Below are positions 794 through 62,664 of a DNA stretch of 64,000 nt, one piece after another. Source of the DNA: Terriglobia bacterium (GTDB lineage: Bacteria > Acidobacteriota > Terriglobia > Acidiferrales > UBA7541). The stretch covers positions 168,493-232,492 of the forward strand of contig JAIQGG010000006.1 in assembly GCA_020072785.1 (NCBI GenBank). The letters run 5' to 3'. Within the stretch, counting starts at the first letter, position 1, and every line of letters starts with the position of its first letter. The notes under the pieces were generated by a model. It made no database searches. It saw nothing but the letters and a program-made list of their open reading frames with translations, and was not told where the DNA came from. A program made the translations under genes and the position numbers.

Positions 794-821
794 ATTGTAT
801 GCGTGACCGCGAAGCGGTCAA
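794..821 (-). promoter_or_regulatory. Probable sigma70-type promoter of the RND pump gene
   Basis: Read on the minus strand: -35 TTGACC (complement of 816-821), 16-nt spacer, -10 TACAAT (complement of 794-799). The -35 and most of the spacer are formed by the palindrome at 804-820, so a protein bound there would block RNA polymerase. The expected leader is about 170 nt. Confidence 0.5.
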
Positions 822-826
822 CATAC
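798..826. repeat. Palindrome copy 1 (TGACCGC-GAA-GCGGTCA) with outer stem
   Basis: The 17-bp core at 804-820 is a perfect inverted repeat with a 3-nt centre. Here it is flanked by a further pairing stem, GTATG at 798-802 with CATAC at 822-826, making the longest palindrome of the family in this window. Confidence 0.85.
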
Positions 827-943
827 GATACCGCGTTTTCGGCTGGAAATTCGACAGGCAGCGTGTGACCCCGCGCCGCGGAAGGGCCGTCCGGGGAAAC
901 CCCTGCGAAGATGCGCGGGGAAAAAACCGCGCCCGCGCGGCTG

Positions 944-952
944 TGCTATGAT
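944..952 (+). promoter_or_regulatory. Extended -10 element upstream of the AsmA-like gene
   Basis: TG-C-TATGAT at 944-952 matches an extended -10 (TGnTATAAT) in 5 of 6 core positions. No good -35 is seen. Transcription would start near 959, only a few bases before palindrome copy 2, leaving a 75-nt leader to the ATG at 1034. Confidence 0.45.
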
Positions 953-962
953 GTCTCCGGCG

Positions 963-979
963 TGACCGCACCGCGGTCA
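963..979. repeat. Palindrome copy 2 (TGACCGC-ACC-GCGGTCA)
   Basis: Perfect 17-bp inverted repeat placed at about +4 to +20 of the predicted AsmA transcript, a classical operator position. Confidence 0.85.
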
Positions 980-1033
980 GCGCTGTTGTTCTTGCCTCGA
1001 GAAGCACGTTCCGGCCTCGCGCTGGAGGTTCCC

Positions 1034-2773
1034 ATGAGCACCAATCGCATTCGTACCCTCGCCATCGTTCTGGGTGTCTTGGTTGTACTACTGCTGCTGC
1101 TGCCTTCCCTCATCCCCGTGAATCAATTTCGTTCCACCGTCGAGGAGAAACTTTCCGCCGCGCTGGACCGCAAGGTGCATGTCGGGAATCTAAGTCTTTC
1201 GCTCTGGTCCGGCGCCCTGGCGGCCGAGGAGCTGTCTATCGCGGACGATGCGAAGTTCAGCGCCGCGCCGTTTTTGACGGCCAAGGCCCTCAAGGTCAAG
1301 GTCGAGGTCATGGCGCTGATTTTCTCGCGTGCGCTGCACATCACCGGTCTGACGATCGAGAAGCCCGAAGTGACGCTGCTGCGCGACGCGGCCGGGCGCT
1401 GGAATTTCTCGTCGCTGGGCGGGGCGCCGGCAAAGTCCGAGCCGCGGCGGGCGGCGCAAGCGCCGGCGCAGTCGTCGGATGCCGCCGCGGAACTTCTGGT
1501 GCAGAAAATGGAGTTGAAGGACGGGCGGCTGCTGATCGGGACCATGGGGTCGGCGAAGCGCGCCAGCTATGACAATGTGAACGCGGAAGCCTCGGATGTG
1601 TCCATGAGCGCGGCGTTTCCGGCGAAGGTGACGGCGAGCCTGCCGGGCGGGGGGAGCTTCAAGCTGGAGGGGCGTGTGGGCCCGCTGAACCCGAACGACG
1701 CCTCGCTTTCCCCGGTGGACGCGAAGATTTCCATCGACGGGCTGGACCTGGCTTCGACCGGGGTGATTGATGCCGCGGCGGGGCTTGGCGGAATCCTGGA
1801 CCTGGATGCCACGCTCACCTCGCAGAAAGGCGAAGTGCAGACCAAAGGCACGATGAAGCTGAAGAAGCTGCTGCTAGTGGCGGGCGGGTCTCCGTCCACG
1901 GTTCCCGTTACGCTGGATTTTTCCACGAAATCGGATATGCAGAGAAATACGGGGGTGCTGAACCCCTCGGCGATCAAGGTGGGCAACGCGGCCGCGCGCA
2001 TCGCAGGAACCTACGAGACGCGCGGAGAAGCCACGGTCGTGAATCTCAAGTTCGCCGGCCAGGACATGCCGGCGCGCGACCTGCAGGGCTTTCTCCCGGC
2101 GCTGGGCATCAACCTGCCCAAGGGGGCGTCGCTCTCATCGGGCATGCTCAGCGGGGATCTGAACATTCAGGGGCCGACGAACCGCCTGATCACCTCGGGG
2201 ACCCTGGGGCTGGCGAATGCCCGGGTGAGCGGGTTCGATCTGGGTTCGAAGCTCGCCGTGATTTCCGCGCTGGCCGGCGTGAAGACGGGATCGGACCTGG
2301 ACATCGAGAAGCTGACCACGAAAATCCGCATGGCCCCGGACGGGCTGCGCGCCGAGAATTTCAATGCGGTCATCCCCGCGCTGGGCACGCTGGTGGGCGC
2401 GGGGACGGTAGACGCGAAGAACAACCTGGACTTCAAAATGCTGGCGACGCTGACGGGCGGGCCGGCAGCCGCTGGTACAACGGGAGGTGCGGGCGCGGCG
2501 CCCGCGGGAGGAGCAGCTACGACTGGCGGGGGAGGAGTGGCCGGGATGCTCGGCGCGCTGCTCGGCCCGGCCAAGGGCGGACAGGCGCGGCGCATTCCGT
2601 TCCTGATTCAGGGCACGGCCTCCGATCCCAAATTTGTTCCCGATGTGCAGGGGCTGGCCACGGAAATGCTGAAGTCGCAGTTCAGCGGAAGCGGGGCGCA
2701 GAAGGACACCCAGCAGCCGGACAGCGGTCCCCTGGGCGGGCTGGGGGAACTGTTTAAGAAGAAAAAGCCGTGA
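1034..2773 (+). CDS. AsmA-like envelope protein
   Basis: 579 residues. The ATG at 1034 is preceded by GGAGG five bases upstream; an in-frame extension to 911 lacks this signal. The protein starts MSTNRIRTLAIVLGVLVVLL, a single N-terminal membrane helix, then ...SLIPVNQFRSTVEEKLSAAL and GRKV-like DRKVHVGNLSLSLWSG, the opening typical of AsmA/TamB-like proteins, which are anchored in the inner membrane and hold a long beta-rich periplasmic body implicated in moving phospholipids between membranes. The later part contains a Gly/Ala-rich low-complexity linker (about residues 475-510) and a basic C-terminus ending KKKKP. Monocistronic; the neighbouring thiolase is 212 bp away. Confidence 0.8.
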   Translation: MSTNRIRTLAIVLGVLVVLLLLLPSLIPVNQFRSTVEEKLSAALDRKVHVGNLSLSLWSGALAAEELSIADDAKFSAAPFLTAKALKVKVEVMALIFSRALHITGLTIEKPEVTLLRDAAGRWNFSSLGGAPAKSEPRRAAQAPAQSSDAAAELLVQKMELKDGRLLIGTMGSAKRASYDNVNAEASDVSMSAAFPAKVTASLPGGGSFKLEGRVGPLNPNDASLSPVDAKISIDGLDLASTGVIDAAAGLGGILDLDATLTSQKGEVQTKGTMKLKKLLLVAGGSPSTVPVTLDFSTKSDMQRNTGVLNPSAIKVGNAAARIAGTYETRGEATVVNLKFAGQDMPARDLQGFLPALGINLPKGASLSSGMLSGDLNIQGPTNRLITSGTLGLANARVSGFDLGSKLAVISALAGVKTGSDLDIEKLTTKIRMAPDGLRAENFNAVIPALGTLVGAGTVDAKNNLDFKMLATLTGGPAAAGTTGGAGAAPAGGAATTGGGGVAGMLGALLGPAKGGQARRIPFLIQGTASDPKFVPDVQGLATEMLKSQFSGSGAQKDTQQPDSGPLGGLGELFKKKKP

Positions 2774-2890
2774 AGAGCGTGAGCCGTGACCCTGGTTGGT
2801 GACTTGTAGGCAGGGAGTGCTCGCTGTGCGGGGGCGCGGGTAATCGTTTGCGCGCTTTTTCCTTTGCCGTCTATTCCGGTCCCTTTTTTT

Positions 2891-2921
2891 CTCCGTGACC
2901 TCTGTGACTCGGTGGCTATCC
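2891..2921 (-). repeat. CAC(A/C)GAG-type dispersed intergenic repeat, copy 1
   Basis: On the minus strand this reads TAGCCACCGAG followed by TCACAGAGGTCACGGAG, a short repeat of CAC(A/C/G)GAG units. A related copy in the opposite orientation lies at 6994-7020. The rest of the 2774-2985 gap shows no clear signal beyond a thymine-rich stretch near 2880. Confidence 0.5.
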
Positions 2922-2985
2922 CATCTTGCTTTTTCTGGCGCTGGGGCATCCAATATGAGGCAGAGTTTATGGAGCGAGGTGGGGC

Positions 2986-4194
2986 ATGGCTGAAGCCGTG
3001 ATTGTTTCCTCGATACGCACGCCGGTGGGCAGGGCGTTCAAGGGCGCGCTGCGCGCGACGCGCCCGGACGATCTTGCCGCGGAAGCCATCAAGGCGGCCC
3101 TGGCGCGGGTGCCGGGGCTGGATGCCAAGGAGATCGAGGACGTCATCCTGGGCTGCGCCATGCCCGAGGCCGAGCAGGGGATGAACGTGGCGCGCATCGC
3201 TTCGCTGCGCGCGGGCTTGCCTGTCGAGTGTTCGGCGATGACCATCAACCGCTTCTGCTCGTCGGGGCTGCAGGCCATCGCCATCGCGGCGGAACGCATC
3301 CGCTGCGGCGCGGCGGAGGTGATCCTCGCGGGCGGCACGGAGTCCATGAGCCTGGTGCCCATGGGCGGGAACAAGATTTCCCCGAATCCCTGGCTGGTGG
3401 ACAATAATCCGGATTCTTACATCAGCATGGGCCTGGGCACGGAGCATGTCGCCCGGAAGTACGGGATTACGCGCGAGGCGGCGGACAAGTTTTCCTACGC
3501 GAGCCACCAGAAGGCCCTGGCCGCGATTGCCGCCGGGAAGTTCAAGGACGAGACCGTGCCCGTGGAAGTGAGGATCACGGCGTGGCCCAGCGGCAACGGC
3601 GCCGGAAAAGGGAAGGGCGCGGCCAAGGCGGCGACGCAGACCTTTGTGTTTGACACCGACGACGGCCCGCGCGCGGATACTTCCATGGAAGCGCTGGCCA
3701 AGCTGAAGGCCGCGTTTCACGTGCAGGGCACGGTGACAGCAGGGAACAGCTCGCAGATGAGCGACGGTGCGGCGGCGGCGGTGGTGATGAGCGAGGCGCG
3801 CGCCAAGGCGCTGGGGCTGAAGCCGCTGGCGCGCTTTGTGTCGTTCGCCACGGCAGGGTGCCCGCCGGAGGAGTTCGGCGTCGGGCCGGTCTATGCGATC
3901 CCCAAGGCGCTGAAGCTGGCGGGGCTGAAGCTGGACGACATCGCGGTGATCGAGCTGAACGAAGCCTTCGCGGCGCAGTCGCTGGCGGTGATCCAACAGG
4001 CGGGGCTCGATCCGGCGCGGGTCAATCCCAACGGCGGCGCGATCGCTTTGGGCCATCCGCTCGGCTGCACCGGAGCGAAGCTGACGGCTTCGATCATCCG
4101 CGAGTTGCAGAGGCGCAATGCGCGCTACGGTCTGGTGACCATGTGCATCGGCGGCGGCATGGGCGCCGCGGGCATCCTCGAGCGGGTGTCGTAG
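2986..4194 (+). CDS. fadA: Acetyl-CoA acetyltransferase / 3-ketoacyl-CoA thiolase
   Basis: 402 residues, the usual thiolase length. It catalyses thiolytic cleavage of 3-ketoacyl-CoA (or the reverse condensation of two acetyl-CoA) in the cytoplasm. The nucleophilic Cys91 lies in [12 protein letters not shown], the catalytic His357 in GHPLGCTG and the second Cys387 in [18 protein letters not shown] of the loop domain is also present. A purine-rich ribosome site, GAGGTGGGG, precedes ATG 2986. The acyl-CoA dehydrogenase gene downstream supports a role in beta-oxidation, but no hydratase/3-hydroxyacyl dehydrogenase gene is adjacent, so FadA versus biosynthetic AtoB cannot be settled. Confidence 0.9.
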
Positions 4195-4195
4195 G

Positions 4196-4972
4196 ATGCG
4201 CTCCACGAAATCAGCCTGGTTCCTTGCAACGATTCTGTTGCTTTGCGGCGGGATGCTGCGCGGGCAGGCGCCGGCCGCGCCACCTGCTGCGGCGCCGCAG
4301 GCGGTTCCAGTGCGGGGCGAGCCGCGGCATCACCTGGCGTTTGAAAACGGCTACGTGCGGGTGTTCGCGGTGGAGGTGGCGCCGCACGACGCCACGCTGC
4401 TGCACGAGCACGCTCTCGACTATGTCTACGTCACGCTGGGCACGGCGGACATCGTCAACGCAGTTTTCGGCAAGCCGGAGGTCCATGCGCAGTTGAAGGA
4501 CGGGGAGGTGCACTTCGCGCGCGGGGGATTCGCGCATGTGGCGCGCAACCTGAGCGACCTGCCCTTCCGCAATCTCACCATTGAGTTCTTGAAGCCCCAG
4601 GGCGAGGTGCACAACCTCTGCGAGAAAATCGTGCCCGGCGACGCGGGGCCGTGCGAGAAAGTCCAGGGGAAAGGCCATGTGACCACGCCGCTGATGGAGA
4701 CGGCGGAAATGCGCATCGAGTTGGTTCGGCTGGACCCGCAAGCGCAGAAGATCGAAATGGCGCCCGGCACAGGAACCCTGGTGGCCGCGCTGGAACAGGC
4801 CGGTATCGAAGTGGAATCCGAGGGGCAGCCGCCGGCGAGCATCGCCACCGGGGGACTCTTGTGGCTTCCGGCCGGGTCGCGGCAAGTTTTCTCCAATCTT
4901 CGCAACACGCCTGCAAATTTTCTGCGGATCGCTTTCAAGGACAGCGGGGCGCAGGAAACAACCGTGCACTGA
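4196..4972 (+). CDS. Secreted cupin-like protein
   Basis: 258 residues, starting one base after the thiolase stop, so probably co-transcribed. Residues 1-23 form a signal peptide (MRSTKSAW, then a hydrophobic run ending LRGQ), followed by an Ala/Pro-rich linker. The body resembles two small cupin barrels: HHLAFENGYVRVFAVEV and HDATLLHEHALDYVYVTLG in the first, and GTGTLVAALEQAGIEVES with GGLLWLPAGSRQVFSN in the second. HEH could bind a metal. No enzyme activity can be assigned; the protein should act outside the cytoplasm. Similar exported cupins without known function occur next to metabolic genes, but the link to the thiolase is only positional. Confidence 0.65.
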   Translation: MRSTKSAWFLATILLLCGGMLRGQAPAAPPAAAPQAVPVRGEPRHHLAFENGYVRVFAVEVAPHDATLLHEHALDYVYVTLGTADIVNAVFGKPEVHAQLKDGEVHFARGGFAHVARNLSDLPFRNLTIEFLKPQGEVHNLCEKIVPGDAGPCEKVQGKGHVTTPLMETAEMRIELVRLDPQAQKIEMAPGTGTLVAALEQAGIEVESEGQPPASIATGGLLWLPAGSRQVFSNLRNTPANFLRIAFKDSGAQETTVH

Positions 4973-5156
4973 GGATTTCCCCCGGCCTTCCGGAGTTTTT
5001 CCCGGTGATATACCGTGTGGCAAACCTGTACTGCACGGCGTTTGCCGGGCGGGCAGACCCGGGAGTAAGATACCTTCCCAGCGGGCTCCTCGCACCCGCT
5101 TGGCACGCACGCGGCCTGGCCGCGTACCAGTTCACCACGCGCACCCGGAGGCAATC

Positions 5157-6956
<1,800 letters not shown>

Positions 6957-6962
6957 GAAAGT

Positions 6963-6979
6963 TGACCGCTTCGGGGTCA
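6963..6979. repeat. Palindrome copy 3 (TGACCGC-TTC-GGGGTCA, one mismatch)
   Basis: Lies seven bases behind the acyl-CoA dehydrogenase stop codon, between a gene end and its terminator, where no promoter is expected. This argues that at least some copies are mobile or inert repeats rather than operators. Confidence 0.75.
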
Positions 6980-6993
6980 CGCCTACGGAAGAT

Positions 6994-7020
6994 TAGCCAC
7001 AGAGACGCAGAGCCACGGAG
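6994..7020 (+). repeat. CACAGAG-type dispersed repeat, copy 2
   Basis: Reads TAGCCACAGAG then ACGCAGAGCCACGGAG. It matches the copy at 2891-2921 in the opposite orientation, including the leading TAGCCAC and trailing CACGGAG. Confidence 0.5.
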
Positions 7021-7023
7021 TTC

Positions 7024-7064
7024 AAAGAGGAAGCCCAGGAAACAACGGGCTTCCTCTTTTTGTT
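7024..7064. terminator. Bidirectional intrinsic terminator
   Basis: A perfect 13-bp stem (7024-7036 with 7047-7059) with a 10-nt loop is followed by TTTTTG on the plus strand and flanked by AAA on the other side. It sits between convergent genes and can end both the acyl-CoA dehydrogenase and the potassium-channel transcripts. Confidence 0.85.
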
Positions 7065-7113
7065 TGTGCCGGTACCGTAGCCAGCGGCTGGCAGCGCCGC
7101 AAATTCGTCAGCG

Positions 7114-8118: not shown

Positions 8119-8321
8119 CGGGTCACCGGAGATGGCCAGGCATGGTGTTCCGCGGAGAAGGGAAAGTCAAGATGAGGGAAAGAAAGTGCCGGGAGGCGGG
8201 CGAAGGATTTGCGCCAAGAGAATAGGCCGGAGTGCGCAACAAAGCGGGAGACTCGGCGAACTTTCGCGCGTCCTTCCCGGGTCATTCCTTCGGCGATCTT
8301 CAGGCTGCGGTGCGTTCTTGA

Positions 8322-8351
8322 TTGACGCGGTTTGTGCGCCTGTGTTAGAAA
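8322..8351 (+). promoter_or_regulatory. Possible promoter of the first complex I operon
   Basis: -35 TTGACG at 8322-8327, 18-nt spacer, -10 TAGAAA at 8346-8351 preceded by an extended TG. This would give a leader of about 50 nt to nuoC. The remaining divergent gap (8119-8321) shows no clear element. Confidence 0.35.
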
Positions 8352-8406
8352 CGGCACGATGGTTCTCCGCGCTGCTCGTGTGTAAGCAGCTCATTCCGCT
8401 GGGGCT

Positions 8407-9036: not shown

Positions 9037-9062
9037 CGGAAGAAGGGTCGAAGAGCCAGAGA

Positions 9063-12065: not shown

Positions 12066-12072
12066 GGCGACG

Positions 12073-12375: not shown

Positions 12376-12415
12376 CAGCGCAGGCCAAAGTTCGCAGGAA
12401 AGAAAAGACACAGGC

Positions 12416-14524
<2,109 letters not shown>

Positions 14525-14536
14525 AAGGCAAAGAGT

Positions 14537-16177: not shown

Positions 16178-16186
16178 CCTACGGCG

Positions 16187-32672: not shown

Positions 32673-33044
32673 CTAGCGGTTCCAGTCGAGAGCGCCCTTT
32701 TTCCAGAGATAGAGGTAACCGACCAGCAGGATGGCGATATACAGCACCATCTCCACGAAGCCGAACCACTTCAATTCTCGAAAAATGTAAGCCCAGGGGT
32801 ACAGAAAGATGGCTTCCACGTCGAACAGGATAAAGACCATCGCCACCAGATAAAATTTGACCGAGAACGGCTCGCGGGCGTCGCCCGTCGGCTCCATTCC
32901 GCACTCGTAAGGGAGCTGCTTGGCCCGGCTGGGCCGCCGCCAGCCCACCAGCACGGACAAGCTGACCAGGACGCCGGCGAGCAGAAAGGCCAGGGTAAGG
33001 AACAGTAGGAGTGGCGCGTACGCTTGCAGGTTCGGAGCGTTCAT
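32673..33044 (-). CDS. nuoA: NADH-quinone oxidoreductase subunit A
   Basis: 123 residues, three membrane helices. The conserved loop YECGMEPTGDAREPFSVKFY (with the quinone-site Cys) and ILFDVEAIFLYPWAYIF with its Asp/Glu pair identify it. The only nuoA in the window; first gene of the minus-strand operon, under a good promoter at 33056-33084. Confidence 0.95.
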   Translation of the reverse strand: MNAPNLQAYAPLLLFLTLAFLLAGVLVSLSVLVGWRRPSRAKQLPYECGMEPTGDAREPFSVKFYLVAMVFILFDVEAIFLYPWAYIFRELKWFGFVEMVLYIAILLVGYLYLWKKGALDWNR

Positions 33045-33054
33045 GGCGAAGAGG

Positions 33055-33084
33055 TATAATAACGTCTGACCGCCAAGTGGTCAA
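33055..33084 (-). promoter_or_regulatory. Strong nuoA promoter, overlapping a plus-strand -10
   Basis: Minus strand: -35 TTGACC (complement of 33079-33084), 17-nt spacer, -10 TATTAT (complement of 33056-33061). The -35 and spacer coincide with palindrome copy 4. On the plus strand TATAAT at 33055-33060 is a perfect -10 for the opposite gene (its -35, TTCGGA at 33031-33036, is weak), so the two promoters share their -10 sequence. Confidence 0.65.
33067..33083. repeat. Palindrome copy 4 (TGACCGC-CAA-GTGGTCA, one mismatch)
   Basis: Forms the -35 and most of the spacer of the nuoA promoter. A further half site GCGGTCA stands at 33094-33100. Confidence 0.75.
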
Positions 33085-33138
33085 ATGCACCGTGCGGTCA
33101 GAGGGGTTCTGGCGCCGCGTTGGGGCGCGCAAGTGAAG

Positions 33139-38837: not shown

Positions 38838-38873
38838 CGCGCGGCGGCGTCTGCGGCCGCGCTTTGTTCCTGA

Positions 38874-38890
38874 TGACCGCAAAGCGGTCA
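38874..38890. repeat. Palindrome copy 5 (TGACCGC-AAA-GCGGTCA)
   Basis: Perfect copy, followed by A, so the minus strand reads TTGACCGC as at nuoA and RND. No convincing -10 is found at the right distance here. Located between divergent bshA and SDR genes. Confidence 0.85.
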
Positions 38891-38918
38891 ACACTTAGAC
38901 GCGGGAGCTGGAGAAAAC

Positions 38919-39683
38919 GTGACACGGCTGGCGGGGAAAATCGCGCTGATCACCGGCGGGGGAACGGGCCTGGGGCGCGCCTGCGCCCTGCGTTTTGCCC
39001 AGGAGGGCGCGCGAGTGGCGTTGGCTGGGCGGCGCCTGGAGCCATTGGAAAGCGCCGCTGCGGAGATACGCGCCGGGGGCGGAGAAGCACTGGCCATCGC
39101 CTGCGACGTGACCCGCGCGGGAGATGCGGCGCGCGCGGTACGCGAAACCGCAGCGCGCTTCGGCGGGCTGCACGTACTCGTCAACAACGCCGGAATGCTG
39201 CACGTTTCCAGCGTAGAGAGCATTTCCGAGGACGACTGGGACCGGGTGCTGGAGGTGAATCTCAAGGGGCCATTCCTGATGTCCCGGGCGGCGCTGCCGG
39301 AGTTGCGCAAGGCCGGCGGAGGCGCCATTGTGAACATCGGCTCGATTCTGGGACTGGTGGCCATGAAGGAGCGCGCCGCGTACTGCGCCTCCAAGGGGGG
39401 AGTGACGCTGCTAACCAAGGCCATGGCCTTGGACCACGCCCACGAAAATATTCGCGTCAACTGCATCTGCCCTGCGATCGTGGAGACGGACCTCGTGAAG
39501 GAGCTCTTCACCCGCGCACCTGATCCGGAAGCGGCGCGGCGCGCGCGCCTGGCCACCATTCCCCTCGGGCGCATGGGGCAGCCGGAGGACGCCGCGCATT
39601 TGGCCGTGTACCTGGCCTCGGAGGAATCGGCCTGGGTGACCGGGGCGGCCATTCCCCTGGACGGCGGGCTGACCGCGTATTGA
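38919..39683 (+). CDS. Short-chain dehydrogenase/reductase (FabG-like)
   Basis: 254 residues from GTG 38919, with GGGAGCTGGAG upstream. Classical SDR: nucleotide-binding T12-GGGTGLG19, NNAG (89-92), and the catalytic Ser142, Tyr155 and Lys159 (AYCASKGG). ARVALAGRR contains Arg pairs after the second strand, which favours NADP(H). The substrate is unknown. It is followed after 48 bases by a PaaI-type thioesterase, a pairing that suggests fatty-acid or aromatic acyl-CoA metabolism, but only by position. Confidence 0.88.
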   Translation: MTRLAGKIALITGGGTGLGRACALRFAQEGARVALAGRRLEPLESAAAEIRAGGGEALAIACDVTRAGDAARAVRETAARFGGLHVLVNNAGMLHVSSVESISEDDWDRVLEVNLKGPFLMSRAALPELRKAGGGAIVNIGSILGLVAMKERAAYCASKGGVTLLTKAMALDHAHENIRVNCICPAIVETDLVKELFTRAPDPEAARRARLATIPLGRMGQPEDAAHLAVYLASEESAWVTGAAIPLDGGLTAY

Positions 39684-49376: not shown

Positions 49377-49404
49377 GGGTACAGTTATATTAGACACTAA
49401 CAGA

Positions 49405-51522
49405 CTACTGTTGGTTGCGTGATTGTTCAACTGCAGCGGCCGGGGCATGCGGGCGGGGGGGGGCATTCCGTGCCGGGAGGTTGTAGGTCACACTGTTGAG
49501 GCTTTTGAGGTAGCTGGCGACACCCTGGTAGAGGCCGTCGGCAACACGCTGCCGGTAGTCGGGCTTCTTGAGCAGCTTTTCGTCCGCGGGATTGCTGAGG
49601 AAGGAGATCTCCGTCAGGATCGAAGGCATATCCGCCCCGATCAGCACCACGAAGGGGGCCTTGCGCACGCCGCGGTTCTTCACCCGGCGGCTGGTCTTCT
49701 GGACGCGCTGGGCCAGAGAATCCTGGATGTCCGAAGCCAACTCGCGCGACTCTTCGATCTTTTCCGTGCGCGCGATCTTCTTGACCAGGTCCTGCAGTTC
49801 GTGGACGCCGCCGCTGGCCATGGCGTTTTCGCGGGCGGCCACGTCCATGGCTTCGGGCGAGCCACGCAGGTTCAGGTAGTAGGTTTCCACGCCGCGGGCC
49901 GCGTGATCGTGGCTGGAGTTGGCGTGGATGGAAATGAAGAGGTCAGCCTTGGCCTCGTTGGCGATTTCCGTGCGCCGCTCGAGGGGCACAAAGGTGTCGT
50001 CCGGGCGCGTGAAGATCACCTCCGCGCCGGGCAGCTTCTGTTCGATGACCTTGCCGAGGCGCAGGGCGATGTCCAGGCAGAGATCCTTCTCCAGCAGGCC
50101 GGTGGGGCCAATGGTGCCGGTGTCGTGGCCGCCATGTCCGGCATCAATCACGATACGCCCGATCTTCAAGCCCAGGGTGCGGGTGAGGGTGGCCTGGCCG
50201 TCGCGTGTTGGCAGCGGGGCACTCGGCGGGACGGCGTCGCGTTCCGGCCCGGCGGCTCCGTCCTTGCGGCTGTGCGTCAGGGAACTGTTATTCACCGCCG
50301 GGGAATCGTGCGCCGCGCCGCGAATCCTGGAATCCGCTAGTTCGGCGGAGCGGGCCGCGGCGGTATCCGCGGGCTCAACGGGAATCTTCCTGGCCACGGC
50401 GGGCTGCAGTGCGGGCTTCGCGGCTGTTTTTTCGGCGACGTTTTCGGGCGCGCCTTCCAGGCGGGTCTTGCGCGCCGCACGCAACGCCGCCGCGGAGGCA
50501 TACAGGTCCACCGTCAGGCGCGGGGGATTATCGCTGACCGCCGCGGTATAGCCGCGCACGCCGGCGACATCCAAAACCATGCGCACGGTGCCCGCGTGAT
50601 TCTGAGCCATGCGTACGGCCTTTAGCATCTCCCCGCTCACCGTGATCGTGCGGCTGGCCATTTCCGGGGTCAGCCGCGCAGCTTGCAAATCGAAATAGAT
50701 ACGGTCCGGATTGCGGATGCGCGCCGAGGTGTAAGTGACTTTGTCTTCGAGGTCGACGACCACGCGCGCGGAATTGGCCGTTATGGTCGTGGAGATCCCC
50801 TTGACGCGGGGAATTTCCATGGAAGCGGAGGGGGAGGGGGCTGCCGCTGCGGGCTCGGCCACCGCCGGCTCTTCCTTCATCTTGGCGGAGCGCGCGGGGG
50901 CTTCCTTTGTAACTGGGACCGCGAAGCGGTCAACGGGCGTGCCGGGAGGCGCCGGTAGTTCACCGCGCTGCAGCAAGGCCAGTTCGGCAAGCGCTTCCTG
51001 GGCTTCGCGGCGCCGCGGCGAACGGCGGTAGCGCTTCAGAAACTCTTCATAGGTTTTCGCCGCCAGCGCGGGATCGCCAAGCTGGTCTTTCTGCAGGTGC
51101 GCCATGCGCAACATGGCGTCGCTGCAGGAGTGGCTCGCGGGATATTCGTGCAGCAGAAACTGGTAGGTGTCCACGGCGGCCTGGAAATATCTGCGTCCGA
51201 AGCGGTCGCCCATCTCGGCATTCAGTTCGGCCACCGCCAGCAGCGCGTCCGGCACTTCCACGGCGTGCGGAGTGATCAGATAGACGCGGCGATAGGTGGA
51301 AACGACCTGCTTGTATTCGGCCAGAGTACGCTCGGCGAGCGGCTTGCTGTTCAGCGCGGCGCGCTGCTCTTCGCCGCGGGAAAACTGGGATTGCGCGGCT
51401 TGGCGCTTAAGGTCGGTGGTGTGGGTGGCGAAGGCGGGAAGGGTCAAGACAAAAGACAGCGAAGCGGCGGCGAAAGCCGCGCGAAGCCTGCGGCAGGTAA
51501 GCAATTCGAGCACGCCTAACAT
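49405..51522 (-). CDS. N-acetylmuramoyl-L-alanine amidase with AMIN domain
   Basis: 705 residues from ATG 51522, with GGGGGAAG just upstream. A signal peptide (about 1-32) is followed by TPR-like helices (65-187), an Ala/Pro/Glu linker, an AMIN domain (about 245-342: SARVVVDLEDKVTYTSARIR, RIYFDLQAARL), a second linker and an Amidase_3 domain (456-690). Zinc ligands and catalytic residues: His463 in DAGHGGHDTG, Glu478, His533 in SIHANSS, Glu639 in LTEISFLSNP. It cuts the amide between muramic acid and stem peptide in the periplasm, usually at division. In the first linker residues V197-D-R-F-A-V202 are encoded by palindrome copy 6. Confidence 0.9.
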   Translation of the reverse strand: MLGVLELLTCRRLRAAFAAASLSFVLTLPAFATHTTDLKRQAAQSQFSRGEEQRAALNSKPLAERTLAEYKQVVSTYRRVYLITPHAVEVPDALLAVAELNAEMGDRFGRRYFQAAVDTYQFLLHEYPASHSCSDAMLRMAHLQKDQLGDPALAAKTYEEFLKRYRRSPRRREAQEALAELALLQRGELPAPPGTPVDRFAVPVTKEAPARSAKMKEEPAVAEPAAAAPSPSASMEIPRVKGISTTITANSARVVVDLEDKVTYTSARIRNPDRIYFDLQAARLTPEMASRTITVSGEMLKAVRMAQNHAGTVRMVLDVAGVRGYTAAVSDNPPRLTVDLYASAAALRAARKTRLEGAPENVAEKTAAKPALQPAVARKIPVEPADTAAARSAELADSRIRGAAHDSPAVNNSSLTHSRKDGAAGPERDAVPPSAPLPTRDGQATLTRTLGLKIGRIVIDAGHGGHDTGTIGPTGLLEKDLCLDIALRLGKVIEQKLPGAEVIFTRPDDTFVPLERRTEIANEAKADLFISIHANSSHDHAARGVETYYLNLRGSPEAMDVAARENAMASGGVHELQDLVKKIARTEKIEESRELASDIQDSLAQRVQKTSRRVKNRGVRKAPFVVLIGADMPSILTEISFLSNPADEKLLKKPDYRQRVADGLYQGVASYLKSLNSVTYNLPARNAPPRPHAPAAAVEQSRNQQ
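50916..50932. repeat. Palindrome copy 6, inside the amidase coding sequence
   Basis: GGACCGC-GAA-GCGGTCA, one mismatch to the consensus. It encodes VDRFAV in a Pro/Ala linker between TPR and AMIN domains, where an insertion would be tolerated. Confidence 0.75.
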
Positions 51523-51535
51523 CTTCCCCCAACCC

Positions 51536-52240: not shown

Positions 52241-52348
52241 CGAACCCTGGGAAAGGCAAAACGATTTCCGTTACCGTAGCCCTATAGAAACCCGTGCCCA
52301 AGGCAGGGGTGTGTCTCCTGTCGGACACGTTTCTAGCGCTGCCCAAAA

Positions 52349-55099
<2,751 letters not shown>

Positions 55100-55130
55100 G
55101 GATACCTCAGTGGAAATCCACCCACAATTC

Positions 55131-55160
55131 ATTATCGCAGAGGGAGAAGAGATGCCGCAA
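55131..55160 (-). promoter_or_regulatory. Probable alaS promoter
   Basis: Minus strand: -35 TTGCGG (complement of 55155-55160), 18-nt spacer, extended -10 TG-C-GATAAT (core 55131-55136). The start near 55124 leaves a 25-nt leader to GTG 55099 and excludes the ATG at 55132. Confidence 0.45.
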
Positions 55161-55284
55161 TTGGAAGACGGGGCGCCGGGAGGTCCGGTGGGACTTATGT
55201 CACAGCGCGGGTTGCCAGCCGGGTTGTAGGCTTTCCGTGGAAGCCGTACGGGGGCAGCAGAACCCAGCCCTCGAAGGAGAGAAG

Positions 55285-56646: not shown

Positions 56647-56718
56647 TCCTGATCCGCAGGGGCGCGATCCAGCGTGCCCTTACGGCGGTGAGCCGGAACG
56701 ATTGCGCGCCGTTGATCC

Positions 56719-57363
56719 TTACGCGGACTCTCCGGATGCATCTCCCATGTCCGGAACATCTTCCTTGGTCATGGCGCGCAGCTCGCGGCGGATGATGTCG
56801 GTGGGGAAGCCGGCGCGGAGCAGGCTGCGGTAGAGCGAAGCGATCTTGCGCACGTCGATCTCGCCGCGCAGCAGCTTGAGCTTGCGCGCGATGCGCTGGC
56901 GCACCAGGGCGGCCTCGTCGGTCACCTGGGAGATCTCTTCCAGGGCGGCTTCGATTTGCCGGTCGGGCACGCCGCGGGCGCGCAGGTCGCGGGCGATGCG
57001 GAACTTGCCCTGGCGGCGGATTTCGCTGCGCTGGCGCACGAACTGTCTGGCGTAGCGCGCGTCGTCGAGCAGCCCCGCGCGCTTCAGGCGCTCCAGGACG
57101 GGCTGCACCAGGGTCTTGTCCTCCGCGCGGCGCTCCAGCGCCTGCTTCATTTCGTGCACGGAGTGTGCGCGGCGCACCAGGGCGCGCAGCGCGGATTCAT
57201 AGAGGCCGGATTCGGAGTCGAGCTTGCGTGGGGAGCGCACCGGGGAAGGATAGAAGCAGGAGACGCAGGAAGCAAGGCGGGAAGGAAAGTTGAGGGTTTG
57301 CGGAGCCGAGCGGTGCAAAAGGGGAAGAGGTCCGGGCCTCCTCCGGTTCTCATTTCTTTCCAT
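56719..57363 (-). CDS. recX: Regulatory protein RecX
   Basis: 214 residues from ATG 57363. The RecX three-helix repeats are clear from about residue 55: ALRALVRRAHSVHEMKQALE, LERLKRAGLLDDARYARQFV, QGKFRIARDLRARGVPDRQI, IASLYRSLLRAGFPTDIIRR. RecX binds the RecA filament and limits its growth. The first 41 residues are not RecX-like; a GTG at 57240 would remove them (173 residues) and may be the real start. recA is not in the window. It starts 29 bases behind the pilT stop. Confidence 0.85.
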   Translation of the reverse strand: MERNENRRRPGPLPLLHRSAPQTLNFPSRLASCVSCFYPSPVRSPRKLDSESGLYESALRALVRRAHSVHEMKQALERRAEDKTLVQPVLERLKRAGLLDDARYARQFVRQRSEIRRQGKFRIARDLRARGVPDRQIEAALEEISQVTDEAALVRQRIARKLKLLRGEIDVRKIASLYRSLLRAGFPTDIIRRELRAMTKEDVPDMGDASGESA

Positions 57364-57392
57364 CTTTTCGAGTTTGCAGGGTTCAACTGCTT

Positions 57393-58538
57393 TTATTTTT
57401 TCGAGAAGCGCTCGAAATCCGCCATCTGCTTTTCCATCTCTTCGCGCGCGGCGTCGGCGGTGGAGCGGATGCCTTGCAGGCGCAGCTTGAATTCGTCGGG
57501 GTTGGTGGCGCGCGTGAGAGCTTCGTCCATAGTGATGAGTTGCTTGGTGTAGAGGTCGAAGAGCGACTGGTCGAAGGTCTGCATGCCGTACTGGCTGGTG
57601 CCGGCGGAGATGGCGTCGTGGATCATGCGCGTCTTGTCGGGATTGATGATGCAGTCGCGGATGTAGGCGGTGGCGATCATGATTTCCACGGCGGGCACGC
57701 GGCCCCTGTCGTCGGCGCGCCGCACCAGGCGCTGGCTGATCACGGCCTTGAGCGTGGAAGCGAGCTGCAGGCGGATCTGCTTCTGCTCGGGCGGCGGAAA
57801 GACGGCGATAATACGCTGAATGGTCTCGGTGGCGTCCAGGGTGTGCAGGGTGGAGAAGACCAGGTGGCCGGTTTCGGCGGCCAGCAGGGCGGTGGAAATG
57901 GTTTCCAGGTCGCGCATTTCGCCGACCAGAATCACGTCAGGGTCCTGCCGCAGGGCAGCCCGGAGCGCGGAAGCGAAATTGGCGGTGTCCACTTCGACTT
58001 CGCGCTGGTTGATGAAGCTGCGCTTGTCGCGGTGCAGGAACTCGATGGGGTCTTCGATGGTGATGAGGTGGTCGGCGCGATTGGCGTTGATGCGGTCGAT
58101 CATCGCCGCCAGGGAGGTGGATTTACCGGAACCCGTGGTGCCGGTGACCAGCACCAGCCCGCGCTGCTCTTCGCAGATCTTGTTGATGACCGCGGGAAGG
58201 TTCAGCTCTTCGATGGTGCGGATCTTGGTGGGAATGACGCGCAGCACCATGCCCACGTTGCCGCGCTGCTGGAAGACGTTGACGCGGAAACGCCCCAGGC
58301 CCGCCACGCCATAGGCCATATCCAGTTCCGCGGTTTCCTTGAATTTCTGCTTCTGGCGGTTGGTCATCATGCTGAACGCCATGGAGAGCATCTCTTCCGG
58401 CGTGATGCGGGAGACGTCGCTGATGGGAGTGAGCAGGCCGTCCACGCGCAGATAGGGATGGTTTCCGACCTTCAGGTGCAAGTCGGAGGCCTTGTTTTCG
58501 ACGGCGCGGCGGAGAAGATCGTCAATGCTCAGTGCCAT
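57393..58538 (-). CDS. pilT: Type IV pilus retraction ATPase PilT
   Basis: 381 residues. An N-terminal PAS-like domain (LLRRAVENKASDLHLKVGNH) precedes the RecA-like core: Walker A G133-TTGSGKS140, the Asp box ITIEDPIEFLHRDK, Walker B VILVGEMRDLETIS and the His box STLHTLDATETIQRI. The hexamer hydrolyses ATP at the pilus base to retract the fibre for twitching motility or DNA uptake. The C-terminal MIHDAISAG replaces the AIRNLIRE motif of classical PilT, so a PilU-like variant is possible. No other pil gene is adjacent. Confidence 0.92.
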   Translation of the reverse strand: MALSIDDLLRRAVENKASDLHLKVGNHPYLRVDGLLTPISDVSRITPEEMLSMAFSMMTNRQKQKFKETAELDMAYGVAGLGRFRVNVFQQRGNVGMVLRVIPTKIRTIEELNLPAVINKICEEQRGLVLVTGTTGSGKSTSLAAMIDRINANRADHLITIEDPIEFLHRDKRSFINQREVEVDTANFASALRAALRQDPDVILVGEMRDLETISTALLAAETGHLVFSTLHTLDATETIQRIIAVFPPPEQKQIRLQLASTLKAVISQRLVRRADDRGRVPAVEIMIATAYIRDCIINPDKTRMIHDAISAGTSQYGMQTFDQSLFDLYTKQLITMDEALTRATNPDEFKLRLQGIRSTADAAREEMEKQMADFERFSKK

Positions 58539-58583
58539 GTCGTGTAAACCCCGCAGAGGCCCGCCGAAGCGGGGCCAAAGCCG

Positions 58584-58612
58584 ACACTAGCACCGGCCCC
58601 TGGCGGCGGCAA
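58584..58612 (-). promoter_or_regulatory. Possible pilT promoter
   Basis: Minus strand: -35 TTGCCG (complement of 58607-58612), 17-nt spacer, extended -10 TG-C-TAGTGT (core 58584-58589). Confidence 0.35.
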
Positions 58613-58679
58613 GGCGCATGCCGCGCGGAGTTGCTCGACAGTAACCCGGGGGCCAAAGCGGGCCGCGCGATGGGCAGAT

Positions 58680-59366
58680 TCAGCTTTTCTTCAGGAACAG
58701 CGAATCGTAGAGCAGGCCGGCAAGGAAGCCTCCGGCCAGCGGCCCCACCCAGTAGACGCCATGATTGGCCCAGTGACCGGCGGCCAGCGCGGGACCGAAG
58801 GCCCGTGCGGGGTTCATGGCCGCGCCGGTCAGCGGGCCGCCCATGAGGACGTCCATGGTGATGGTCAGGCCGATGCCGAAGCCGGCGATCTTGTTAAAGG
58901 CGCCCTTCTCATCTACCGCGGTGGCAAAGACCACCAACACGAGGAAGAAGGTCATGACGCTCTCGAGGATCATGCCGTTGAGGCGCGTGAAGTCGCGCGC
59001 CAGGTCCGGCGTGCCCAGGGCCACGGCGCGCCAGGTGTCTTCGGGAACGAGCATCTTCAGCAGAAAGGCGGCCGCCACTGCGCCCGCCAGTTGCGCCGCC
59101 CAGTACCCCACGACCTCCAGAGTGCTGAAGCGCTTGGTCACCCAGAAGCCGATGGTCACCGCGGGATTGAAGTGGCCCCCGCAGATGTGGCCCAGTGCTG
59201 TGATCATGATTCCTATCGCCAGCCCATGCGCGACGGCAATCCCCAGGAGACCCGGCCCACCCGTGCCGTGCAGGAACTGATCCGCACAGATGGAGCCGGC
59301 TCCGATGAAGATCAAGGTGAACGTGCCGATGAATTCGGCGACAAGTTTCTGCGGCATGCTGTACAT
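58680..59366 (-). CDS. Aquaporin / MIP-family channel
   Basis: 228 residues from ATG 59366, with GGAGG eight bases upstream. Six helices and two half-helices bearing the signature boxes NPA67-69 (GGHFNPAVT) and NPA185-187 (GAAMNPARAFGP), the latter followed by the selectivity-filter Arg188. It conducts water or small uncharged solutes across the inner membrane. The second box context LTGAAMNPARAFGP is closer to archaeal or TIP-like channels than to E. coli AqpZ. Confidence 0.9.
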   Translation of the reverse strand: MYSMPQKLVAEFIGTFTLIFIGAGSICADQFLHGTGGPGLLGIAVAHGLAIGIMITALGHICGGHFNPAVTIGFWVTKRFSTLEVVGYWAAQLAGAVAAAFLLKMLVPEDTWRAVALGTPDLARDFTRLNGMILESVMTFFLVLVVFATAVDEKGAFNKIAGFGIGLTITMDVLMGGPLTGAAMNPARAFGPALAAGHWANHGVYWVGPLAGGFLAGLLYDSLFLKKS

Positions 59367-59491
59367 CGAGGTAGCCTCCGGCCGGATCAAGCAGGCGGGC
59401 AGCATCCGGCTGTGCCTATCGCGCGGATTCTACTCAAACCCGCGCGGGCAGTCAAAACAACTATTGAAAGATGGGAAAGGGTGGCGGAGCG

Positions 59492-59531
59492 CTGAACTGT
59501 TGAACAATTCAAACGTTCAACGGTTCAACGG
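59492..59531. repeat. GTTGAAC/GTTCAAC repeat
   Basis: AACTGTTGAACAATTC, then AAACGTTCAACGGTTCAACGG: a low-GC stretch with three GTTSAAC-like units, two forming an inverted repeat. It lies between the aquaporin start and the ilvE end. Confidence 0.5.
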
Positions 59532-59572
59532 CGTAGCGCAAGTGCCGCCGGAAGGAGAATGCGCCCCGCGGG

Positions 59573-60517
59573 TTACCGGGAAGTGCCTACGGCCGCGGCG
59601 CACGGCGTGAGCCAGTTGTGGCGGTCGGGCTTGGTACCGCTGGTCAGGGCGAAGAACTCTTCCTGCAGGCGCCTGGTGACCGGTCCGGCCACGCCCTTGC
59701 CCACCTGGATGTGGTCCACCGAGCGGATGGGCGTGACCTCCACGGCCGTGCCCACGAAGAAAACCTCATCCACGATGTACAGCATCTCGCGCGGGATGAT
59801 CTGCTCCTTCACCGGGATCTTCAGGTCCTCGCTCAGCGTGAGCACCGCGTCACGGGTGATGCCGGGGAGCACGCTTGCGCCCAGCGGCGGCGTATACAGC
59901 GTGCCGTTATGCACCAGGAAGACATTCATCCCCGAGCCTTCGCTCACGTAGCCGGCAGTGTCCAGGGCGATGCCTTCGGCAAAGCCGTTGGTGGCCGCTT
60001 CCATGCGGATGAGCTGCGAATTCATGTAATTGCCCGCGGCCTTGGACATCGCCGGAAGCGTGTTCGGGGCGATGCGCGTCCACGAGCTGACGCACACGTC
60101 CACGCCCTTGGCCAGCGCTTCCGGTCCGAGGTAGGCGCCCCACGACCAGCAGGCCATGTAGCACTCCACCGGAGAGTTCATCGGGTTCACCCCGACATCG
60201 CCGTAGCCGCGCAGCGCCAGGGGCTTGACGTAGCAGGACTTCAGGTTGTTGCGGGGCACCAGCTCGGTGGCCACCTTGCAGAATTCGTCCACGGAGTAGG
60301 GCAGCTCCATGCGGTAGATCTTGGCGGAGTTGATCAGCCGCTGCATGTGCTCCCGCAGGCGGAAGATCGCCGGGCCCTGCTTGGTTTCGTAGCAGCGGAT
60401 GCCCTCGAAGACCGCGGAGCCATAGCTCACCACGTGCGAAAGCACGTGCAGCGTCGCGTCGTCCCAGTTGATCCACTTCCCGTTGTGCCAGATCTTCTCC
60501 GTCTTCTGAATGGGCAT
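59573..60517 (-). CDS. ilvE: Branched-chain amino acid aminotransferase
   Basis: 314 residues. Fold-type IV PLP enzyme that aminates the 2-oxo acids of Leu, Ile and Val. PLP Lys159 lies in LPAMSKAAGNYMNSQLI; YGSAVFEGIRCYET, SEGSGMNVFLVHNG, GITRDAVLTLSEDL and FVGTAVEVTPIRSVD are IlvE signatures. It has a strong own promoter (60628-60656) and twin palindromic sites further upstream. No other ilv gene is adjacent. Confidence 0.92.
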   Translation of the reverse strand: MPIQKTEKIWHNGKWINWDDATLHVLSHVVSYGSAVFEGIRCYETKQGPAIFRLREHMQRLINSAKIYRMELPYSVDEFCKVATELVPRNNLKSCYVKPLALRGYGDVGVNPMNSPVECYMACWSWGAYLGPEALAKGVDVCVSSWTRIAPNTLPAMSKAAGNYMNSQLIRMEAATNGFAEGIALDTAGYVSEGSGMNVFLVHNGTLYTPPLGASVLPGITRDAVLTLSEDLKIPVKEQIIPREMLYIVDEVFFVGTAVEVTPIRSVDHIQVGKGVAGPVTRRLQEEFFALTSGTKPDRHNWLTPCAAAVGTSR

Positions 60518-60627
60518 GTGCTCTCTCCGGTAGTTGACTCTCGGCCCGCCTGGCTGCGCGGCGCGTGCGGCGTGGCTTGCTCTTTTTTGCCGCGCAGGTG
60601 CAGGAAGTCCTTGCGCCTGCTCCCGGC

Positions 60628-60656
60628 AGAATACGGCAGGGGTGGGGGAGCGTCAA
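60628..60656 (-). promoter_or_regulatory. ilvE promoter
   Basis: Minus strand: -35 TTGACG (complement of 60651-60656), 17-nt spacer, -10 TATTCT (complement of 60628-60633). The leader would be about 105 nt. Confidence 0.65.
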
Positions 60657-60689
60657 TGCGCCGTTGGTTCTGTTCCGCGGCCGCCGCAA

Positions 60690-60716
60690 CCAATTTGGCG
60701 CGCGGCCAATTTGGCG
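60690..60716. promoter_or_regulatory. Twin CCAATTTGGCG sites upstream of ilvE
   Basis: The 11-bp word CCAATTTGGCG occurs at 60690-60700 and 60706-60716 (16-bp period), each with the odd palindrome CCAA-T-TTGG. They stand 34-60 bp upstream of the ilvE -35 and between ilvE and the end of the exporter operon, a place where an activator or repressor could bind. Confidence 0.45.
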
Positions 60717-60743
60717 GTGCGCGTGCGCCGACTCCCGCAGGGC

Positions 60744-61655
60744 TCAGCGCGGAGCTTTGGCGGGTTCCGCGGGCGGCTCTGGCGCCGCCTCCGGTGCGGT
60801 CACCATCTTGTACGCCGACTTGGCCTGCCCCTGGATGTGCCCGTACTTGCTTTCCCAGGCGCCCAGAAGCAGGAACGGCAGAATCGTGGCCACGGCCCAC
60901 AGCTTGGCGCGGCTGGGCACCTTCTCGCCCGGCTCCCAGCGGAACAGTTGCGTCGAAATAAAAAACGCCAGGATCGCCCATGCGCCCAGCGCGGTGATCT
61001 CCACGCGCAGCGCCCAGAGGCCGGCTCCGAGCAACATAGCCTTCTGCAGGCCGATCACCACGTAGGTTGCGGGCAGGAAAACCGCCAGGTGCTGCACGAC
61101 GCGCGGCAGCATGGGCAGTGGAAACGTGGCGCCGGAGAAAAACATCAGCGCGTACCAGACGATCTGGCAAATCACCTGGGTCTCCTGCATCGAGTTGGTC
61201 ACGCTGGCCACGATCAGCCCCAGGGCCGCGAAAGAAATAGTCGCCACGCTCACCAGTATCGCCAGCGAGAGCAGGCTGCCGAACTGCGTGACGTGGAACA
61301 GCCAGCGCGCCAGCAGGATCTCGATGACCACCGTGGGCATCGTCAGGATGTAGTTCGCCGCGATGCTCGACGACAGCATGTCCGCCGCGGTCACCGGCGC
61401 CAGCCGGAAGCGCCGCAGGATGCCCTGCTCGCGGTACATCACCAGATTGGCGCTCAGGCCCCAGAAGCTGCCCATCACCGTCAGCGAAATGACGGGGCCG
61501 AGCAGGTAAGTCACCATGCGCGGCTCGCCCTTGGCGAAGATCCCCGCAAACAAGAAGAACAGCCCCAGCGGCATGAGCAGCGTGAAGAACAGGAAAATTT
61601 TGTTGCGCATCGTCAAGCGGATGCGGTTGCTGGCCAGTGTGACGAAGTGCTTCAA
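60744..61655 (-). CDS. ABC-2 type exporter permease
   Basis: 303 residues from TTG 61655, overlapping the ATPase stop (TTGA). Six helices: one near the N-terminus after RIRLTMRNKIFLFF, then LGPVISLTVMGSFWGLSANL, the ABC-2 core SVATISFAALGLIVASVTNS and FFSGATFPLPMLPRVVQHLA, and a seventh hydrophobic stretch before an Ala/Pro-rich cytoplasmic end. MYREQGILRRFRLAPV is the coupling segment typical of ABC-2 exporters. It forms a transporter with the ATPase; substrate unknown. Confidence 0.85.
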   Translation of the reverse strand: MKHFVTLASNRIRLTMRNKIFLFFTLLMPLGLFFLFAGIFAKGEPRMVTYLLGPVISLTVMGSFWGLSANLVMYREQGILRRFRLAPVTAADMLSSSIAANYILTMPTVVIEILLARWLFHVTQFGSLLSLAILVSVATISFAALGLIVASVTNSMQETQVICQIVWYALMFFSGATFPLPMLPRVVQHLAVFLPATYVVIGLQKAMLLGAGLWALRVEITALGAWAILAFFISTQLFRWEPGEKVPSRAKLWAVATILPFLLLGAWESKYGHIQGQAKSAYKMVTAPEAAPEPPAEPAKAPR

Positions 61656-62572
61656 TCCCGGAGTCTCCTTCCGGTCAGCTCGATGAACACATCCTCCAGC
61701 GAAGGCGTGGAAATCTCCAAATTGACCAGCTCGTTGCCTTCCGCTTCCAAGTGCTTCACCAGGGCCACGATGGCTTGCGGTGGGCGGTGGCAGTGCAGAA
61801 TGAAGGCGCCGTCCAGGGGATGGCAGTCGGTCACGCCGTCCAGGCCCTTGAGGGTCGCTTGCGAGGTGGGTTTGGCCAGGCGCACCTCGATCCGCGTGGT
61901 ATCCCCGGAGCGCTGCTTCAGTTCGCGCGGCGTGCCCTGCGCGATCACCTTGCCGTGGTCCACGATGGCCACGCGATCGCACAGCCGCTCGGCTTCCTCG
62001 ATGTAGTGCGTGGTCAGCACGATGGTCTTTTTCTCCCGCCGCAGCTCTTCGATGACGTCGTAGATCTCCCGGCGCACCTGGGGGTCCAGTCCCGCGGTCG
62101 GCTCGTCGAAAAAGAGCACCCGCGGGTCATTCACCAGGGCCATGGCCAGCGCCAGGCGCTGCTTCTGCCCGCCGGAAAGCGTGCTGTAGAAGGCGTTGCG
62201 CTTTTCGGCCAGCCCGAAGCGCTTCAGCAGCTCTTCCGGGCTGCGCCGCCGCTCGTAGAAAGTCGCGAACAACTTCAGCGCTTCCAGCACGCGCATCTTG
62301 TCCGGAAGGGAAGTGGCCTGCAGGGTGGCCCCGATCTCGCGCTTCAGTTTTTCGGGGTCGCGCTGCGGGTCCAGCCCGCAGACCGATACCCGCCCGCCGT
62401 CCAGCGTGCGCAGCCCTTCCAGAATCTCGATGGTGCTGGTTTTGCCCGCGCCGTTCGGCCCCAGCAGGCCAAAGACCTCGCCTTCCTGGACTTCGAAGCT
62501 CACGCCGCGAATCGCTTCGACGTCGCCGTAGCGTTTGCTCAGGTTTTCGACCTGCAAGATGGAGTTGGACAT
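61652..62572 (-). CDS. ABC exporter ATP-binding protein (DrrA/CcmA-like)
   Basis: 306 residues from ATG 62572. Walker A G38-PNGAGKT45, signature STLSGGQKQRLALAMALVND, Walker B VLFFDEPTAGLDPQ, H-loop in LTTHYIEEAERLCD. The C-terminal 80 residues carry the extension usual for drug or lipid exporters (LVNLEISTPSLEDVFIELTG). The leader contains three tandem palindromes immediately before the start codon; no normal ribosome site is visible, as GGTTGACC stands in its place, so translation initiation itself may be affected. Confidence 0.92.
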   Translation of the reverse strand: MSNSILQVENLSKRYGDVEAIRGVSFEVQEGEVFGLLGPNGAGKTSTIEILEGLRTLDGGRVSVCGLDPQRDPEKLKREIGATLQATSLPDKMRVLEALKLFATFYERRRSPEELLKRFGLAEKRNAFYSTLSGGQKQRLALAMALVNDPRVLFFDEPTAGLDPQVRREIYDVIEELRREKKTIVLTTHYIEEAERLCDRVAIVDHGKVIAQGTPRELKQRSGDTTRIEVRLAKPTSQATLKGLDGVTDCHPLDGAFILHCHRPPQAIVALVKHLEAEGNELVNLEISTPSLEDVFIELTGRRLRD

Positions 62573-62578
62573 GTTCGG

Positions 62579-62664
62579 TTGACCGCTTTGCGGTCGCACT
62601 CGAAAATTTGACCGCTCTGCGGTCACGCTCGAAAAATGACCGCTCTGCGGCCGCACTCTAAAAA
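62579..62664. repeat. Triple tandem palindrome array (copies 7-9, 29-bp period)
   Basis: Units begin at 62579, 62608 and 62636/62637. Cores are TGACCGC-TTT-GCGGTCG, TGACCGC-TCT-GCGGTCA and TGACCGC-TCT-GCGGCCG, each followed by a 12-nt tail of the type GCACTCGAAAAT. Read on the transcript (minus) strand, the hairpins of the two units farthest from the gene end in ATTTTT or AATTTT and so look like small terminators. The array fills the leader of the ABC exporter operon. Confidence 0.9.

Follow-up and report, generated by a model that had tools for sequence, protein, structure and literature searches.

The 64,000-nucleotide (nt) stretch of contig JAIQGG010000006.1 from a Terriglobia bacterium, referred to at its full length as the window, carries the palindrome TGACCGC-N3-GCGGTCA at nine sites when up to two mismatches are allowed. 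Four of these sites are perfect, four have one mismatch, and one has two, with positions and mismatch classes exactly as an initial annotation of this DNA gave them. The palindrome is the core of an asymmetric 27-nt unit, N8 (about TKTATGYG) + TGACCGC-NNA-GCGGTCA + AC. We consider it probable that this unit is a hairpin element, added cleanly and without visible target duplication, and that a Y1 (HUH) transposase, acting in trans, moves it as a folded single strand of DNA.

The initial annotation held that such a word should not recur by chance, and shuffling bears this out: 100 dinucleotide-preserving shuffles of the window gave a mean of 0.71 sites and a maximum of 2. The genome-wide scan that it called for (3,729,688 bases, 11 contigs) returned 210 perfect copies, or 279 when one mismatch was allowed, while the reversed pattern, used as a control, had no match. 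Most statistics for this genome come from a sample of 850,580 bases (the window and 40 further stretches). The consensus, orthologous-place, and 132-copy flank analyses also took in loci from the whole-genome scan and the three Y1 gene loci described below. In the sample, no other perfect 7-bp stem with a loop of 3-6 nt is as common as this one (62 copies; 8 for the runner-up).

Membership of each window site was scored with a profile of 13 nt upstream, the hairpin, and 2 nt downstream. The palindromes at 804, 6963, 38874, 50916, 62580, and 62609 score 29.6-48.2 and are clear copies. The first unit (796..822, forward strand) has a perfect stem, the loop GAA, and the target actat (791-795); its place holds two copies in the sister species (genome G029). 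The unit at 6961..6987 (reverse strand) lies behind an acyl-CoA dehydrogenase gene with the target tcttc (6988-6992), and is common to both species, with a perfect stem in G029. The unit at 38866..38892 (forward strand, loop AAA) lies between glycosyltransferase and short-chain dehydrogenase genes, and another relative, G028, has an exact 27-nt empty site here. The unit at 50908..50934 (forward strand) lies within an N-acetylmuramoyl-L-alanine amidase gene (49405..51447, reverse strand; Amidase_3 and AMIN domains), antisense and in frame, where it encodes VDRFAVPVT. According to the gene calls of this analysis it is the only coding site of the nine, in agreement with the initial annotation.

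A three-unit array on the reverse strand occupies 62578-62661, with spacings of 29 and 28. Its first copy (62578..62604) lies a short distance upstream of the gene for an ABC transporter ATPase (61652-62572, reverse strand), and the second (62607..62633) has the loop AGA and the tail AA, not AC. The third, diverged unit (62635..62661) has two stem mismatches and misfitting flanks. Its palindrome at 62637 scores 8.8 (flanks -7.2) and counts as a copy by array position only. For reference, the median flank score over 82 sampled sites is 13.2, and 6 of the 82 fall below 0. Two palindromes misfit the unit. The one at 963..979 (flanks -6.4 or -10.6, depending on the strand) is a doubtful member with a degenerate orthologue in G029, and the one at 33067..33083 (flanks -6.5) is not counted as a copy.

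Structure and placement of the 27-nt unit

Copies were oriented by the purine-rich loop, which among the 82 sampled copies is GAA in 47, AAA in 18, and AGA in 5. The foot, positions -8 to -1, has the consensus T, G/T, T, A, T, G, T/C, G over 132 pooled copies, a set that left out copies with an upstream neighbour, with neither the AC tail nor G at -1, or near stretch ends. Host DNA 5' of the unit is also biased. C stands at -12 in 114 of the 132, with preferences for T/A at -13, T at -10, and T/C at -9, which gives a WCNTY-like pentamer. The asymmetric consensus recurs in three genomes with the same upstream C: C at -12 is found in 86% of 64 copies without an upstream neighbour in the own genome, 83% of 52 in G029, and 69% of 26 in a third genome, G016. 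Either strand, taken singly, forms the 7-bp hairpin (z -3.1 to -5.2).

Copies occur singly or in head-to-tail arrays that repeat every 27 bp. When one mismatch is allowed, 14 same-strand pairs are spaced at exactly 27, and neighbours within 400 bp are direct in 19 cases and inverted in 4.

The 82 sampled copies comprise 56 intergenic copies, 23 in predicted genes, and 3 at stretch ends. With the last dropped, 23 of 79 lie in genes, a depletion given that 84.5% of the DNA is coding. Codirectional, divergent, and convergent gaps hold 37, 14, and 5 intergenic copies, where gap length predicts 34.6, 15.1, and 6.3 (p=0.77); this test gives no sign of a promoter preference. Within genes, 19 copies are read as DRFAV/DREAV and 4 as TASRS/TAKRS. 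Five of the in-gene copies (locus L055) share one gene and are not independent. The third frame is unused, as expected because it contains TGA. Copy orientation and the sign of the local GC skew agree for 46 of the 66 clusters (p=0.003). This is a weak hint of a replication-strand bias, and only a hint because clusters within one stretch are not independent.

A stable single-strand fold and a mostly intergenic position would also suit an element that acts in RNA and is kept by selection, for example as a terminator, an attenuator, or a hairpin at mRNA ends. However, orientation is unrelated to gene strand (r=-0.03), convergent gaps are not enriched, and the consensus has no T run behind the stem. 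Together with the large change between the sister species described below, these features make an RNA-level role very improbable.

The initial annotation had offered two explanations, the operator of a widely acting dimeric transcription regulator or a family akin to repetitive extragenic palindromic (REP) sequences. The dyad symmetry, the 7+7 layout, and the location of several copies upstream of genes suit an operator. In addition, a conserved TATAAT closely precedes the palindrome at 33067, which the sister species retains with one mismatch (G016 and G024 with two). Against this, the genome holds 210 perfect copies, the intergenic copies show no promoter preference, and flanks and loop are asymmetric. 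The operator hypothesis was rejected on copy number, asymmetry, and the test of intergenic classes. At 33067, most congeners keep one half-word only. Of 30 loci in the genus, the own one among them, 28 retain TATAAT followed by GGTCAA rather than the palindrome, which few keep, and this ruled out the site as a conserved operator. No support was found for the suggested link of efflux, envelope, respiration, and thiol synthesis through these sites. The REP-like half of the original alternative stands and the regulator does not.

The interval 33040-33100 itself is a promoter region adjoining a gene for NADH dehydrogenase chain 3. The 227-residue protein downstream has no Pfam match.

Gain and loss between sister species

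The number of perfect copies varies widely in the genus: 210 in the own genome, 187 in G029, 85 in G016, and 0-14 in the other 33 congeners, with none in 13 of the 36. Acidobacteriota genomes from metagenomes are among its members: G029 appears to correspond to record JAIQEV010000001 (Terriglobia bacterium SRVP_26), G016 to QHYP (gp2 AA85), and G018 to QHZB (gp2 AA102). G029 is a sister species, with 83-95% identity in three window proteins. The best G029 match of a fourth, encoded at 38919, reaches only 49%, and its orthologue is probably missing there, as judged from the protein comparison.

Orthologous places were compared in both directions. Among 71 own clusters, both flanks were found for 21 in G029 and for 1 in G028; among 53 G029 clusters, 18 were found in the own sample and 0 in G028. 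The union, made by hand, comprises 26 places. Copy number is equal at 7 and differs at 19, and at 11 of the latter the lengths differ by precisely 27 nt for each extra copy (27, 54, 81, or 162 in total). Arrays differ by as much as 1 versus 7 copies. Such turnover, along with a range of 0-210 copies among congeners and the gain of 27 nt within a coding sequence, renders an operator role extremely improbable.

Eleven pairs have no copy in the relative. Eight of these places are empty with an exact multiple of 27, seven between the own genome and G029 and one at window position 38874 relative to G028; L055:15299, L065, and L090 differ by other lengths. In base-level alignments of seven of the eight empty sites, one junction falls after -9 and the other behind the AC tail, and at L116:7776 compared with L042 the placement is unambiguous. 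No target duplication is seen at the seven aligned sites, whose filled alleles all have C at -12. The eighth place, L085, which was not aligned, differs by 54 nt and lacks this C. The pattern is that of IS200/IS605-type insertion, behind a fixed short target and without duplication. The case for mobility of at least some copies is therefore stronger than the initial annotation stated. The sister species supply before and after alleles of a single 27-nt unit, together with its ends and target rule.

The amidase gene provides a coding example. VDRFAVPVT is present in the own protein and missing in G029, with a length difference of exactly 27 nt. The G029 orthologue carries VDRFAVTHP in a different linker, beside a further length change. 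Because neither nine-codon insertion was found in the 11 other relatives examined, both are most simply read from these alignments as gains. Such events offer a route by which bacteria may acquire nine-residue in-frame insertions in protein linkers. Palindromic elements in frame within protein genes are known from Rickettsia, where they are larger and unrelated in sequence to the element here.

Copies might also spread without any transposase, by replication slippage at hairpins, template switching, or gene conversion. Adjacent units share 5.2 of the 8 foot positions, compared with 3.6 for random units (14 pairs), and arrays differ between the sisters by multiples of 27, both in keeping with this view. 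However, slippage does not put single copies at new sites, and in three genomes the singletons share their upstream C and have a fixed junction. This account is unlikely.

Transposase candidates and related systems

If the unit is instead a transposed hairpin, its features suggest a course for the reaction. The strand with the purine-rich loop would be cut after ...GGTCAAC at the right end and joined behind the target pentamer. A new copy could land directly behind an old one, because the right end of the element, TCAAC, itself fits the target rule, and head-to-tail arrays with a period of 27 would result. Arrays may also grow by local duplication, since units side by side are more alike than units taken at random. 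A Y1 (HUH) enzyme is suggested because the insertion shows no duplication, a short target, a hairpin with a 5' foot and a 3' tail, and strand asymmetry, a combination that matches descriptions of such enzymes (PMC8266576). The chances are about even that one 27-nt hairpin holds all cis signals for transposition (fold, ends, and target choice), is a mobile stretch of nine codons able to enter genes and be read there in frame (VDRFAVT or DREAVN), and builds head-to-tail arrays by itself; single palindromes, and not REPIN doublets alone, would then be live transposons. Short synthetic single strands would allow the unit of movement to be put to the test.

A search with Y1_Tnp identified three Y1 genes in the own genome (loci L038, L039, and L040); it was also run in 6 distinct genomes and then in 6 more. 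The two own genes that were scanned, and the G029 gene, match the NCBIfam model REP_Tyr_transpos above its cut-off. The searched stretch of L038 holds no copy, and at L039 and L040 a pair lies more than 1 kb away on one side. At the G029 gene, the closest match is a palindrome with two mismatches, about 600 bp away. Neither the Y1_Tnp and REP-associated tyrosine transposase (RAYT) searches nor the complete genes that lie, in the own sample, between copies on the same strand yielded a candidate for the cognate transposase.

The neighbourhoods of Y1 genes hold repeats of their own. At L039 (G000:C1:419114-422428), the RAYT gene is flanked by several GTAG-tagged repeats (TATGTAG, then GCCGGGC-loop-GCCCGGC), which form a separate, less common REP family of the own genome. 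The related Y1 genes at L038, L040, and L122 are flanked by inverted GGGGTGCCCCA.../...GTGGGGC repeats and resemble the Y1 genes associated with terminal inverted repeats (TIRs) described from Acidobacteria (PMC3733652). Relatives of these genes are multi-copy in some congeners, with 18 matches in G034.

Several observations weigh against movement by a Y1 enzyme in trans. No unit lies directly beside the three own Y1 genes or the G029 gene, all of them loci at the Pfam threshold. RAYT matches and copies stand at 18 and 0 in G034, 11 and 0 in G004, and 1 and 187 in G029, and G014, with 10 copies, has no Y1 match. The best foot-target column pair, -10/-2, reaches a z of 4.2 among 159 tests, which is no strong covariation. 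The opposite strand folds equally well (-7.6 versus -7.5 kcal/mol), so the fold alone does not pick the acting strand. In the species comparison, 8 of the 19 differences are not exact multiples (one of 26 nt, seven of other lengths), and copy-number differences are over-sampled because many G029 stretches were chosen for tandem pairs. Several empty sites also have at least two mismatches beside the junction.

Alternatively, as in REPtrons, the palindromes could form an ordinary REP family served by a cognate RAYT. The short perfect hairpin, conserved 5' foot, high copy number, mostly intergenic location, strand asymmetry, and implied handling of single-stranded DNA are all shared with REPs and their TnpAREP/RAYT enzymes as described in PMC8266576, and the Y1 genes with REP_Tyr_transpos matches would fit. 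In contrast, the foot is about TKTATGYG and not GTAG, and the 132-copy consensus contains neither the GTAG nor the CGTC tag of the REP super-families. Direct 27-bp arrays take the place of inverted pairs, empty sites are exactly 27 nt, and no directly flanked rayt gene was found among the three own loci and the one in G029. Numbers of the two RAYT types across the 36 genomes do not track copy number. A REPtron of the usual kind is therefore possible, though doubtful.

The proposed mobile hairpin can be set beside three other systems. REPINs are also miniature non-autonomous mobile DNA, and tandem clusters of them are known. They are inverted doublets, with single REPs held to be remnants and no deletion of a singlet reported (PMC3116915). 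In the present element, a single hairpin is gained or lost and direct neighbours outnumber inverted ones. A mobile single hairpin would contrast with the view of lone REPs as remnants (PMC3116915). The palindromic repeats of CGTC-tagged REPs and TIRtrons also have a short tail that is unpaired (Di Nocera et al. 2013, PMC3733652). The CGTC class is described there without a known transposase, and TIR-associated Y1 genes are reported from Acidobacteria (PMC3733652). It is characterized by the CGTC tag, 8-9-bp stems, and 4-5-nt loops, unlike the 7-bp stem, 3-nt loop, AC tail, and direct arrays here (PMC3733652). IS200/IS605 elements such as IS608 likewise insert behind a short target without duplication and have folded strand ends (PMC8266576). 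The unit here differs in having no internal transposase gene, one hairpin, a length of 27 nt, and no strong foot-target covariation. By likeness of working, and not by membership, we class it as a putative REP-like non-autonomous hairpin. The spread of REP-like palindromes has been called poorly understood (PMC8266576).

Occurrence beyond the sister species and associated palindromes

In a sample of the phylum that held no further congener, the oriented pattern was found in 1 of 395 other genomes (G260). This match (L286) is part of an unrelated repeat with a period of about 60 bp around CGACCGCGGAGCGGTCG, a different repeat family in a genome from another family of the phylum. The tandem pattern gave 36 stretches from six genomes in a genome collection, 28 of them from SRVP_26, and the collection also gave one inverted pair in a Saprospiraceae record. 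Viral contigs gave no match to the tandem pattern. Literature searches covered this element and its kind, and the four exact stem-loops occur in none of the papers searched.

Rfam matches are limited to one tRNA in the window and, at 16 genus loci, to large-subunit rRNA (L019) and RNase P RNA (L022). At L022:1379-1395 (G013), a perfect palindrome lies within the RNase P RNA gene (Rfam match 892-1426) and looks like an insertion in a variable arm. In three congeners (L016, L017, and L029, around 1501), TGACCGC-CGG-GCGGTCA forms part of a conserved leader, and a hairpin resembling a terminator comes after it, with no Rfam family. In four congeners (L020, L021, L025, and L028), a palindrome with a varying loop stands at the apparent start of the same gene with similar flanks, and is possibly one old shared copy. 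The copies at L072:3660 and at L077:14113-14139 and 14855 have common longer flanks (GTTCTGGG...ACGCGGGGTTCG or similar), and the element seems to be included there in a larger repeat. A small gene, ParD-like by eye, lies between two of these copies.

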